Positions 26,291 to 36,528 of a stretch of 64,000 bases of DNA are shown here, one piece after another. A model generated the notes under the pieces. It did no database searches. It was not told the origin of the DNA and saw nothing but the letters and a program-made list of their open reading frames with translations. Within the stretch, counting starts at the first letter, position 1; each line of letters begins with the position of its first letter. Source of the stretch: Nocardiopsis algeriensis (GTDB lineage Bacteria > Actinomycetota > Actinomycetes > Streptosporangiales > Streptosporangiaceae). The position numbers were made by a program, and so were the translations under genes. Location: contig NZ_JACHJO010000003.1 in the NCBI RefSeq assembly GCF_014203695.1, positions 377,272 to 441,271 of the forward strand, given 5' to 3'.

Positions 26291-26941
26291 TCACAGGGGC
26301 GGGCCGTGGCCCGGTTCCTCCTGGTGGAAGAAGCGCTGCTCCTGCCAGACCTCGCCGCGGTTGTGGTATCCGCGCTCCTCCCAGAAGCCCCGGCGGTCGG
26401 CCGTCATGTACTCCAGGGCGCGCAGCCACTTGACGTTCTTCCACCCGTACAGGTGCGGCACCACCAGGCGCAGCGGATATCCGCGCTCCTTCGCCAGCGG
26501 CGCACCACCGGAGTGGGTGGCTAGCAGCACCCCCTCGGCCAAGAAGTCCTCCAGGCGCAGGTTCGCACTGTAGCCGTACTCGGCCCAGGCCATCACATGC
26601 GTCACCTCGGGCGCGGGCGGCGCGGCCGCGGCCAGGTCGGCGGAGCGTACACCCTCCCACGACATCCCGGGGACGCTGAAGCGCGCCACGCAGTGGAAGT
26701 CGCTCACCGAGCGGCTCCGGGGCAGGTGCGCGAACTCCTCCCACGTCCACCGGTACACCCCCAGGGAGGAGGTCGCCCCCATGACGCGGAAGTCCCACCT
26801 GTCCGCGCGGAAGCGCGGAACCGGCCCGTAGTGGATCGGCTTGTGGTGCAGGCGCACCCGCTGCCCCGGCGGCACGGCCGTCCCCTCCGAACGGCTGCCG
26901 CTCCCCGTCCCCTCGGACACACCTTCCCCCGTCCGTATCAC
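26291..26941 (-). CDS. Molybdopterin-dependent sulfite-oxidase-type protein
   Basis: Soluble protein of about 216 residues with the sulfite oxidase/MsrP-type molybdopterin fold. The Mo-ligating Cys lies in SDFHCVARFS, followed by SWEGV. Other family segments are GATSSLGVYRWTWEEF, EYGYSANLRLEDFL, GYPLRLVVPHLYGWKNVKWL and the C-terminal GFWEERGYHNRGE. No signal peptide is clear, unlike secreted MsrP. The natural substrate is unknown. The start is uncertain: GTG 26941 and GTG 26920 are both possible, as is a later GTG near PPGQRVRLHHKPIHYGPVP, where similarity probably begins. It is convergent with the MacS-like gene. Confidence 0.8.
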   Translation of the reverse strand: MIRTGEGVSEGTGSGSRSEGTAVPPGQRVRLHHKPIHYGPVPRFRADRWDFRVMGATSSLGVYRWTWEEFAHLPRSRSVSDFHCVARFSVPGMSWEGVRSADLAAAAPPAPEVTHVMAWAEYGYSANLRLEDFLAEGVLLATHSGGAPLAKERGYPLRLVVPHLYGWKNVKWLRALEYMTADRRGFWEERGYHNRGEVWQEQRFFHQEEPGHGPPL

Positions 26942-27089
26942 CGCGGTTCCAGATCTCCCGGGGCACCCCTGGGCGCCCCCGCCGCGCGGAGCAGAGGCGG
27001 CACCCGCCATCCTGCCAGGTGCCCGGAAGAGCGGGGTCGGTCGACCCGGGTGTGTGGACAACCGCCGGCCGTGCGCTATAGTTCCTGCC

Positions 27090-27161
27090 ATGCAGCGGAA
27101 CTTCTGGCGTTTTTATGGCTACCGGCCCGACACCCCGGTCGCCTGTAGAGCGCTGCGCTGA
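27090..27161 (+). CDS. Aromatic-rich leader peptide of DAHP synthase
   Basis: A 23-codon frame reading MQRNFWRFYGYRPD and ending CRALR. Six of residues 5-11 are Phe, Trp, Tyr or Gly, including all three aromatic amino acids made by the shikimate pathway. It lies 120 bp before DAHP synthase and is followed 13 nt after its stop by an intrinsic terminator. This is the layout of ribosome-mediated attenuation: scarcity of charged aromatic tRNAs would stall the ribosome and prevent termination. A Shine-Dalgarno is not obvious; an AT-rich GCTATAGT sequence 14 nt before the ATG looks like a -10 box, so translation may be leaderless or nearly so. Expression is inferred. Confidence 0.7.
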   Translation: MQRNFWRFYGYRPDTPVACRALR

Positions 27162-27187
27162 CACAGACGACTTGAGCCCCGGGCCGG
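27122..27187 (+). promoter_or_regulatory. Antiterminator pairing in the DAHP synthase leader
   Basis: CCGGCCCG at 27122-27129, inside the leader peptide right after the aromatic codons, is perfectly complementary to CGGGCCGG at 27180-27187, which includes part of the terminator's left arm. Forming this helix would exclude the terminator. Confidence 0.5.
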
Positions 27188-27204
27188 ACGACCCGGGGCT
27201 TTTT
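27175..27204 (+). terminator. Attenuator terminator before DAHP synthase
   Basis: 9-bp stem (AGCCCCGGG at 27175-27183, CCCGGGGCT at 27192-27200) followed by a T-run to 27204. It lies between the leader peptide and the DAHP synthase start, so it acts as an attenuator rather than an operon end. Confidence 0.8.
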
Positions 27205-27281: not shown

Positions 27282-28328
27282 ATGGTCATCGTGATGGCAC
27301 CGGACGCCACTTCCGACAACATCAGCGACCTGGTCGAGCTGATCGGCTCGGCCGGGGGAGAGGCCTACGTCACCCGCGGCGTGAGCCGCACGATCATCGG
27401 CCTCGTCGGGGACGTCGAACGGTTCCAGGACCTGGGCCTGGCCGCCAAACCCGGCGTCAGCGACGTCCTGCGCATCTCGGCCCCCTACAAGCTGGTCAGC
27501 CGGGAGAACCACGACAGCCGCAGCGTCGTCAGCGTCCGCGGCGTGCCGATCGGCGGCGACAACGTCACCCTCATCGCCGGCCCGTGCGCCGTCGAGACCC
27601 CCGAGCAGACCCTGGAGGCGGCGCGGATGGCACAGGAGGCCGGCGCGTCCCTGCTGCGCGGCGGCGCCTACAAGCCCCGCACCTCCCCCTACGCCTTCCA
27701 GGGACTGGGCGAGGAGGGCCTGAGGATCCTCGCGGACGTGCGCGCGGAGACCGGCCTGCCGGTCGTCACCGAGGTCGTGGACGCCGCCGACGTCGAGCTC
27801 GTCGCCTCCTACGCCGACATGCTCCAGATCGGCACCCGCAACATGCAGAACTTCGCCCTCCTCCAGGCCGCCGGCGACGCCGGCAAGCCCGTCATGCTCA
27901 AGCGCGGCATGAGCGCCACCATCGAGGAGTGGCTGATGGCCGCCGAGTACATCGCCCAGCGCGGCAACCTCGACATCGTCCTGTGCGAGCGCGGGATCCG
28001 CACCTTCGAGAAGGCCACCCGCAACACCCTGGACATCAGTGCCGTTCCCGTGGCCCAGAGCCTGTCCCACCTGCCGGTGATCGTCGACCCGTCCCACTCG
28101 GGAGGCAAGCGCGACCTGGTACTGCCCCTGACCCGGGCGGCCGTCGCGGTCGGTGCGGACGGAGTCATCGTCGACGTCCACCCCCGTCCCGAGACCGCCC
28201 TGTGCGACGGTCCGCAGGCCCTGGTGCAGGAGGATCTGGCCGGGCTGCGCGACGCGATCGGGACCCTGGCCGCCCTGACCGGCCGCGCCCTCACCCCCGC
28301 CCCGGGCCTCGAACTCGCCGGGATCTAG
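27282..28328 (+). CDS. aroF: 3-deoxy-7-phosphoheptulonate (DAHP) synthase, type I-beta
   Basis: Condenses phosphoenolpyruvate and erythrose 4-phosphate, the first step of aromatic amino acid synthesis. The 348-residue protein has an N-terminal ferredoxin-like regulatory domain (1-72; IGSAGGEAYVTRGVSRTIIG) and a TIM-barrel catalytic domain with LIAGPCAVE, GGAYKPRTSPYAFQGLG, MLKRGMSAT, CERGIRTFE and VDPSHSGGKR. This is the Thermotoga/Bacillus-type I-beta enzyme, in which the N-terminal domain mediates feedback inhibition. The ATG has a weak AGGGA upstream. Expression is probably controlled by the leader peptide at 27090. Confidence 0.93.
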   Translation: MVIVMAPDATSDNISDLVELIGSAGGEAYVTRGVSRTIIGLVGDVERFQDLGLAAKPGVSDVLRISAPYKLVSRENHDSRSVVSVRGVPIGGDNVTLIAGPCAVETPEQTLEAARMAQEAGASLLRGGAYKPRTSPYAFQGLGEEGLRILADVRAETGLPVVTEVVDAADVELVASYADMLQIGTRNMQNFALLQAAGDAGKPVMLKRGMSATIEEWLMAAEYIAQRGNLDIVLCERGIRTFEKATRNTLDISAVPVAQSLSHLPVIVDPSHSGGKRDLVLPLTRAAVAVGADGVIVDVHPRPETALCDGPQALVQEDLAGLRDAIGTLAALTGRALTPAPGLELAGI

Positions 28329-35097: not shown

Positions 35098-36323
35098 TGA
35101 TGCTCCCAGTTCGTCGTGTGCCCGGACACCTCCGGGCGGTCGGCGGCGAACCGCCGCGCGTACTCCGGCAGGGCCTCCCCGGTGAGGACCTGCGCCATGG
35201 CCTCGCCGGTGACGGGGGCCAGCAGCACCCCGTGCCGGAAGTGGCCCCCGGCCAGGTGCAGTCCACCGACCCCGGTGGGCCCCAGCAGGGGTGCGTTGTC
35301 GGGAGAGCCCGGACGCAGTCCCACACAGGTCTCGGTGACCTCCAGCTCGTCCACCCCCGGCACGAGCTCCCGCGCGTCCCTGAGCACCTGCCACAGGCCG
35401 CCGACGGTGAGGGAGGTGTCGTGGCCCCGCTCCTCCTGTGTGGCGCCGACGACCACCTCGCCGTCGGCTCGCGGCACCAGATAGACGGGAGAGCCCCGGA
35501 CCAGGCCGCGGACCGTCCGGTGCACCAGCGGTGGCTCGCCGGCGGGCACCCGGGTGCGCAGCAGCTGGCCCTTGACGGGGCGCAGCGGCGGAACCACCGG
35601 CCGGGGAACCTTCACGCGGTCGCTCCGGCAGCCGGCGGCCAGCACCACCTGGCCGGCGGGCAGGACGCGCCCGTCGGAGAGGACCGCACCCAGGCGTGCG
35701 CCACCGGGGCCGCCCGCCGTGATCTCCACGACACGCTCCCGGACCTCGGCCACCCCCGCGCGGGTCCCGGCCGCGGCGAGGGCGCGCAGCAGCAGCCGGG
35801 GATCCACCGAGTGGTCCTCCGGGGCGAGCACGCCGCCGCGCACCGACGGGGCGAGCATCGGCTCCAGACGGCGGCACTCGCGGCCGGTCAGCCGCTCGGC
35901 GCGCACGCCGAGACGCCCCTGGAGGCCGTGCAGTTCGGTGAGGACGGCCAGGTCGTCGCGGTCGAAGGCGACCAGGAGCGTGCCGGTGGTGCGGTATCCC
36001 ACCCGGATGCCGGAGGCCTCCTCCAGCTCGGCGACGAAGTCGGCGTACATGCCCGCCGACCGGATCCCGAGCTCCATGAGGGGCTCCTCGCCGAACACCG
36101 CCTCGGTGGCCGGGGTGAGCATGCCGGCGGCGACGGCGGAGGCGGAGCGGGAGGCGGACGGGGCGGTCACGGGGTCGGGCTCGACCAGGGTGACCCGCAG
36201 GCCCCTCTGCGCGGCCCTCCAGGCGGTCACCCGCCCGGCGAGCCCGCCGCCGACCACGACGGTCGCGTGTTCCTCGGCGGGCGGACGGATCCTTCCGGAC
36301 CGGAGGTCCTCCTGCGTACGCAC
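35088..36323 (-). CDS. thiO: Glycine oxidase ThiO
   Basis: FAD enzyme that oxidises glycine to the dehydroglycine needed by ThiG. The 411-residue DAO-family protein has the dinucleotide motif VVVGGGLAG near residue 22, the FAD/substrate segments ALAAAGTRAGVAEV and VVLAAGCRSDRV, and a C-terminal GLRPGSPDNAPLLGPT plus GHFRHGVLLAP, typical of glycine oxidases. GTG 36323 follows the TPP riboswitch directly, with its SD (GGGAGGGGAG) lying in the 3' end of the riboswitch. It is the first gene of thiO-thiS-thiG. Oxygen-dependent thiazole synthesis is therefore expected rather than ThiH chemistry. Confidence 0.92.
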
Positions 36324-36337
36324 GGTGCGGTCTCCCC

Positions 36338-36425
36338 TCCCTTCGCCGGCATGACCCGGATCAGGTTCGTGCGGTCGGAGGCGGACAGCCTCCCTCTCAG
36401 CCGGGTCCCCCCGGCTCCCGCGGGA
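36338..36425 (-). ncRNA. TPP riboswitch (THI element)
   Basis: On the minus strand, upstream of thiO, the conserved pieces appear in order: GGGAGCC, GGCTGAGAGGG, then GAACCTGATCCGGGTCATG and [14 protein letters not shown]1 helix forms between TCCC (36422-36425) and GGGA (36338-36341). The 3' end merges with the thiO Shine-Dalgarno, so thiamine pyrophosphate binding probably blocks translation start. Confidence 0.95.
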
Positions 36426-36528
36426 CGTGAATGCTCGGGCCCATCCTACGCATCCCCGCCGCGGGAATCAGTGGCGGGGATCTCCTTCGGTCCGGGCCCG
36501 CCGGGACGCCCCTGTTCCCCCGGTGTGG

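Follow-up and report, generated by a model that had tools for sequence, protein, structure and literature searches.

A probable leaderless attenuator with Phe, Trp and Tyr codons before type I-beta DAHP synthase in Nocardiopsis algeriensis, and similar leaders in other actinomycetes

Ribosome-mediated attenuation is a textbook mode of control; in the trp and pheA leaders of E. coli, stalling of the ribosome at control codons picks the antiterminator over the terminator. Among actinomycetes, the aroF leader of Corynebacterium glutamicum, reportedly named aroR in a paper of 2014, is leaderless and Phe-responsive, and the enzyme that it precedes is of type I-alpha. Excerpts of two papers describe an attenuator transcript and a Phe-Tyr-Phe leader before this aroF gene (cg1129) (PMC4046766, PMC3890552). 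In the excerpted parts of a 2005 actinobacterial survey that included Thermobifida fusca, the trp attenuators of Corynebacterium and Streptomyces have a leader peptide, a GC-rich terminator and alternative hairpins, and no conserved RNA structure is reported before phenylalanine/tyrosine operons (PMC1262725). For mycobacterial leaderless genes, excerpts of a further paper state that the -10 element and the Shine-Dalgarno sequence are mutually exclusive and that the start codon is ATG or GTG only (PMC4633059).

In the window, by which we mean the whole analysed stretch of 64,000 nucleotides from Nocardiopsis algeriensis, a type I-beta DAHP synthase gene is preceded by what is, with a probability of about 0.87, a ribosome-mediated transcription attenuator on a leaderless mRNA. 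Its features are as follows.

27055-27082, + strand: predicted sigma-70-type promoter, with -35 TGGACA at 27055-27060, a 16-nt spacer and -10 TATAGT at 27077-27082
27090-27161, + strand: leader peptide frame MQRNFWRFYGYRPDTPVACRALR, 23 codons, stop TGA at 27159-27161, without a Shine-Dalgarno sequence
27102-27122, + strand: control codons F5 TTC 27102, W6 TGG 27105, F8 TTT 27111, Y9 TAT 27114 and Y11 TAC 27120
27117-27143, + strand: A:B hairpin, directly 3' of the control codons; inner stem 27121-27125/27135-27139, outer pairs 27117-27119/27141-27143
27122-27129, + strand: strand A, forming the left half of the antiterminator; paired with T1 in 92.2% of cells
27138-27146, + strand: N1, 5' side of a hairpin nested in the antiterminator, 76.9% of cells paired
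27163-27171, + strand: N2, the 3' arm of that hairpin, with covariation in the alignment
27175-27204, + strand: intrinsic terminator, with T1 27175-27183, loop, T2 27192-27200 and T run 27200-27204, 99.8% of cells paired
27282-28328, + strand: type I-beta DAHP synthase (DAHP_synth_1 plus ferredoxin-like domain; Pfam, PDB), the gene proposed to be regulated

As in E. coli trp and pheA, stalling at control codons would choose the structure, but those leaders are not leaderless and respond to one control amino acid each. The topology also differs, with 1:2, 2:3 and 3:4 pairings in E. coli and strand A pairing with either B or T1 here (1:2 or 1:3, then 3:4). The likeness to C. glutamicum aroF, as the excerpts present it, lies in a short aromatic-codon leader with an attenuator before an actinomycete DAHP synthase; the leader there is Phe-Tyr-Phe without Trp, whereas here Phe, Trp and Tyr codons stand before a type I-beta enzyme (PMC4046766, PMC3890552). 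Both I-beta and I-alpha placements were found in our survey, and the I-alpha leaders of other families resemble that of the window. The actinobacterial trp attenuators share with the present one a leader peptide, a GC-rich terminator and alternative hairpins, but they have, in the excerpts, repeated Trp codons and belong to trp operons (PMC1262725).

The enzyme encoded at 27282-28328 matches PF00793 (6e-82) and PF18152 (7.7e-17), its closest PDB match is 1rzm (9.6e-108), and its gene has a Shine-Dalgarno-like AGGGA on the 5' side. Between 26950 and 27320 a single promoter (shuffle mean 0.0) and a single terminator (shuffle mean 0.2) are predicted. The leader frame begins 7 nt downstream of the TATAGT hexamer, and the transcript probably starts on or close to the A of the leader's ATG, with the start codon as its 5' end. 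The 131-nt leader stretch folds better than 200/200 shuffles (z -3.18). A sequence-only reading of this region had claimed a 23-codon Phe/Trp/Tyr leader before DAHP synthase, a terminator and an 8-nt antiterminator match. All three were found as described, since 27090-27161 translates to MQRNFWRFYGYRPDTPVACRALR*, arms 27175-27183 and 27192-27200 are followed by TTTTT at 27200-27204, and CCGGCCCG at 27122-27129 exactly matches the reverse complement of CGGGCCGG at 27180-27187. Its view that this is an aromatic attenuator for Phe, Trp and Tyr, built on a terminator plus an alternative pairing, is also supported; the codons and the covarying stems are conserved, and the check that it proposed, for both in actinomycete relatives, was passed (37/37 same-genus genomes, 85/133 loci). 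Three elements by which an attenuator is recognized are present: a short frame with clustered end-product codons, presumably translated; an intrinsic terminator in the space that separates it from the structural gene; and a covarying antiterminator exclusive with that terminator. A reading frame divergent from the leader lies at 26291-27091 on the minus strand. At the site itself no Rfam family reached its gathering score, and weak matches to sRNA families fell far below their cut-offs; elsewhere in the window a TPP riboswitch was recognized at 36321-36431 on the minus strand (65.1 bits, above its gathering score).

The type I-beta enzyme is present in 52/60 relatives, including all 37 same-genus genomes, each of which has the leader, L037 with the variant MQRNTWRFFYGYRP. 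In a class-wide draw, the enzyme was detected in 104/296 genomes with an E-value no higher than 1e-60. A strict test required a frame to begin with ATG or GTG, to have TANNNT immediately before it, to run for 10-45 codons and to hold at least three aromatics in codons 2-14. By this test 85/133 evaluable I-beta loci (about 38 of them from the window's own genus) have a leader and 48/133 do not; four of the 137 loci had been excluded, L136 and L137 as partial matches and two for having little upstream DNA. Short frames dense in aromatic codons, with a score of at least 5.5, occur at 73/133 loci (two, L039 and L129, look spurious) vs 0/133 reverse strands and 2/1330 shuffles, controls that rule out a chance frame. 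Between relatives, the leader peptide shows synonymous changes and frame-keeping indels, and it differs outside the genus Nocardiopsis. When repeats were removed by the first 14 residues, 72 distinct leaders were obtained, 27/80 named loci, some from genomes that also occur among the unnamed ones, having been picked by eye; Phe is present in 72, Tyr in 71 and Trp in 56, and the last aromatic residue is Tyr in 49 of them vs 25.6 expected. The species compared here are related, and the shuffle and Fisher p-values overstate independence.

The way in which these frames begin points to leaderless translation. TANNNT occurs at -16 to -10 before 71/73 frames scoring at least 5.5, which were chosen regardless of upstream sequence, before 13/18 scoring 4 to below 5.5, and before 3/42 scoring below 4. 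The hexamer begins at -14 to -12 in 71/72 distinct chosen leaders vs 1/304 other ATG or GTG codons, a count that is inflated because seven frames dropped by eye as spurious (three lower-scoring ones were added) were judged partly on a missing -10; with the seven restored it is 71/79. An SD-like sequence, sought with one pattern and distance, stands before 3/72 distinct leaders vs 69/72 enzyme genes. The start codons of the distinct leaders are ATG in 38, GTG in 34 and TTG in 0. With the -10 element in position and no Shine-Dalgarno sequence, the leaders agree with the mark of leaderless genes given in the excerpts of the mycobacterial study (PMC4633059). At six loci that have no leader (L069, L072, L100, L112, L126 and L135), the DAHP synthase gene is, by eye, apparently leaderless in its own right: a -10-like hexamer lies about 7 nt upstream of its start.

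The pairings were compared in an alignment of 46 leaders chosen from 109 with a terminator. The terminator T1:T2 is paired in 99.8% of cells; A:T1 is paired in 92.2%, and two of its pairs switch both sides in 10 sequences each. N1:N2 is paired in 76.9%, with both-side changes in 6/8 pairs, and the inner stem of A:B in 91.6%, its outer three pairs being kept in 41, 33 and 36 of the 46 leaders. Neither the percentage paired nor the covariation score was reached by any of 500 shuffles for any of the four pairings. The compensatory changes represent few independent events, and counts of pairs and of pair types were mostly not above those of the shuffles, of which 73 and 499 of 500 reached them for A:T1, 98 and 109 for N1:N2, 18 and 70 for A:B, and 1 and 25 for the terminator. 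On this comparison of sequences, the peptide, the position of the promoter and the four pairings are supported. Strand A finds its antiterminator partner at 27180-27187, within the left side and loop of the terminator. A:B uses the same strand A, and its downstream side overlaps N1; its stretch has a mean folding z of -2.0 over the 72 distinct leaders (61 below -1), with a hairpin of this type sited elsewhere in L098. In other families, divergent A and T1 sequences are still complementary, as with GTGGGCTCCGAG and CTCGGAGCCCAC in L048. A hairpin with a T-rich tail, by a loose T test, follows 84/87 chosen leaders (two have none and one is spurious).

Two of these signals are unremarkable taken alone. 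A perfect match of at least 8 nt to the left side and loop of the terminator also arises in 21/2000 dinucleotide shuffles of the leader, so that the window's match is only moderately unusual; the reality of the leader is settled by its conservation in 37/37 same-genus genomes. Duplex energies of A:T1 are not extreme vs shuffles (mean z -1.3; 13/84 below -2), because the whole region is GC-rich. A further observation concerns the 3' end of the leader, GCGCTGCGCTGACA (xLR-stop; 27149-27163), whose nucleotides are conserved between families, third positions included, beyond what the nested hairpin accounts for.

In the scheme that we infer, down to the transcript start, the stalling, its kinetics, the response to each amino acid and the ribosome footprint on N2, transcription would begin at or near the leader ATG and a ribosome would translate the 23-codon leader during synthesis. 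With ample charged tRNA, the ribosome would reach the stop codon and cover the nested hairpin at N2, strand A would refold with B behind it, and T1:T2 would stop the polymerase near 27204. Under a shortage of charged tRNA for Phe, Trp or Tyr, the ribosome would halt at codons 5-9, N1:N2 would form, A would pair with T1, and the polymerase would continue into the DAHP synthase gene.

This scheme was examined with a model that counts only the RNA between ribosome and polymerase and reads the state of T1 before T2 is made. In 67 distinct leaders the mean T1 sequestration falls from 0.99 (ribosome at codons 5-6) through 0.75 (codon 9) to 0.37 (codon 12) and then rises to 0.47-0.58 (codons 13-16); shuffles, 8 per leader, give 0.88 at codon 5 and 0.82 at codon 12. 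When the modelled ribosome is at the stop codon, sequestration is at least 0.8 in 0/104 leaders and at most 0.3 in 87/104. Before transcription of N2, A:B stands at 0.97-0.99 for codons 4-6, 0.75 for codon 8, 0.43 for codon 9 and 0.13 for codon 10. In the modelled average leader, stalls at codons 8-9 would thus start to break A:B yet spare part of A.

For the leader of the window, it had been suggested that early stalls release the antiterminator strand and that a stall at the last Tyr masks it. Modelled T1 sequestration goes the same way, from 1.00 at codons 5-8 through a mild drop to 0.88 at Y9 and on to 0.61 at Y11. The trend of the A:B hairpin, which that suggestion left out of account, opposes it (0.94-1.00 at codons 5-8, with 0.95 at F8, then 0.76 at Y9 and 0.00 at Y11). 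The A:B competitor is thus predicted to be mostly intact at the main control codons. A ribosome stalled at Y11 covers strand A, so that the remaining pairing of T1 must use other bases.

The outcome depends on how the RNA is folded. At equilibrium, the terminator is the favoured fold of the full RNA in 16/18 leaders, whichever of the positions tried the ribosome occupies; L003 and L048 are the two that switch. A switch would therefore need to operate kinetically. In most of the 18, a ribosome at the stop codon fails to block A:T1 once base pairs are permitted to span the ribosome. Naked RNA tends to antiterminate in the model (81/104 at 0.8 or above), unlike that of E. coli trp.

The control codons are themselves unusual. 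In the distinct leaders Phe is encoded by TTT in 70/135 cases and Tyr by TAT in 64/108, while the figures for 67 DAHP synthase genes are 1/362 for TTT and 0/334 for TAT; the remaining leader codons have G or C in third place in 542/629. The rare TTT and TAT make up 34/70 of Phe/Tyr codons at codons 5-6, 89/118 at codons 7-9 and 1/21 at codon 11 (67 leaders). These rare codons may tune the sensitivity of the stall; alternatively, their preference may reflect local avoidance of structure.

Other explanations of the locus were weighed against the attenuator. Nascent-peptide sensors, of which TnaC is an example, suggest that the peptide might arrest the ribosome on a free aromatic compound and not on uncharged tRNA. 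The near invariance of FWRFYGYRP within the genus speaks for this, but between families the order and neighbours of the aromatics vary (WFFY, WFSYF, WYFLY, YFF, FWFWY) while their content and position stay constant. Residues 10-13 moreover overlap strand A, so that their conservation can be explained as RNA, and we regard such a sensor as unlikely. That the frame encodes a small functional protein, or that an ordinary terminator merely lies before the gene, with no switch involved, seems very improbable. An 8-nt match alone is found in 1% of shuffles, and at equilibrium most of the leaders tried fold into the terminator; nevertheless, compensatory changes fall in mutually exclusive pairings, the dependence on ribosome position is missing from shuffles, and the device is placed before entry enzymes of the aromatic pathway. 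A ligand-binding riboswitch, or a T-box, that contains a reading frame by coincidence would also appear as a structured 5' RNA before a biosynthetic gene, but conservation tracks the codons and the frame, which makes it a highly doubtful candidate.

The attenuator seems to be present on other genes as well. A covariance model from 46 leaders, run on the 296 genomes, matched in 72 of them. In 24 genomes of a large genus (g20), probably Streptomyces, leaders such as MLTQTTFLFTYGNRPTGCHGRAA precede a type II chorismate mutase, the mutase not being seen downstream in one of the 24 (L235); these genomes do not overlap with the 104 that have the I-beta enzyme. Two more chorismate-mutase leaders were found in other families. 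The 36 further matches of the model that were fetched comprise 26 aromatic leaders, 1 I-beta leader, 1 chorismate mutase with the leader cut off and 8 without an aromatic leader; chorismate mutase is downstream of 25/26 of the aromatic leaders, with which Pfam agrees in 8/8 tested. A Trp codon occurs in 2/25 distinct chorismate-mutase leaders vs 56/72 distinct I-beta DAHP leaders. Scarcity of Trp fits the Phe/Tyr branch, a rule that is not strict because I-beta leaders of some families, including Nocardioides, also lack Trp.

Leaders were also found before type I-alpha DAHP synthase, at 37/53 loci whose upstream region was read (57 genomes have this enzyme), and 33/37 of these have a terminator-like hairpin by a loose test. 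Among 33 genomes in which both isozymes were read, the leader precedes I-beta only in 13, I-alpha only in 17, neither in 3 and both in 0. The 13 belong to the window's family and the 17 to another (f21: Jiangella, Haloactinopolyspora, Phytoactinopolyspora), so this exclusive placement rests on essentially two clades; two of the three genomes with neither have a weaker, similar frame before I-alpha. The genome of the window has a second DAHP synthase, of type I-alpha (G000:C7:309629-310684), which lies, by eye, downstream of an acyl-CoA-ligase-like gene; no leader was found upstream of it. A search of this genome for a second leader copy gave one match at 1.3e-28, the others being 0.16 or worse, which speaks against such a copy. 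Type II DAHP synthase (PF01474) and type II chorismate mutase (PF01817) had no match in this genome.

The distribution across actinomycetes suggests a shared starvation sensor on one or other entry gene of the pathway. Somewhat short of even odds, we would tentatively go further and propose one actinomycete-wide family of leaderless aromatic attenuators, reassigned in evolution between I-beta DAHP synthase, I-alpha DAHP synthase and chorismate mutase according to which of them supplies amino acid synthesis. Such a family would pool up to three amino acids and would tend to lose Trp codons where the branch excludes Trp. Its tuning would come from rare TTT and TAT codons, read by wobble and sited close to where a stall starts to open A:B but leaves part of the antiterminator strand free. 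What is apparently new is the wide distribution with up to three amino acids in a leader, the exclusive placement on one DAHP isozyme, the version mostly without Trp before chorismate mutase, the rare TTT/TAT control codons, and the hairpin after them on the antiterminator's strand. The main text of one further paper has none of the terms chorismate, attenuat- and leader peptide (PMC4895711). If the placement rule holds, the leader would be a sequence-only marker of the isozyme that serves amino acid supply in two-isozyme actinomycetes, a point of importance for the metabolic engineering of products derived from shikimate. The leaders also form a natural set in which the amino acids encoded, the codons used for them and the place of the stall all differ, and with it the integration of three amino acids by one leader becomes directly testable.

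Two minor observations concern I-beta loci of other kinds. Loci of the Jiangella family without a leader (L050, L114, L115, L118, L123-L125, L127, L129 and L131) have, by eye, a conserved GTGACC-rich DNA element upstream, possibly an operator. In deltaproteobacterial contigs (L212, L216, L217 and L221; Syntrophaceae, Smithella and others), an unrelated aromatic-rich leader, for example MDRKLNANIGFYGYWFYTYFASVCPLLRRTC, is found with hairpins and a terminator before the I-beta enzyme, apparently an independent attenuator outside the actinomycetes.
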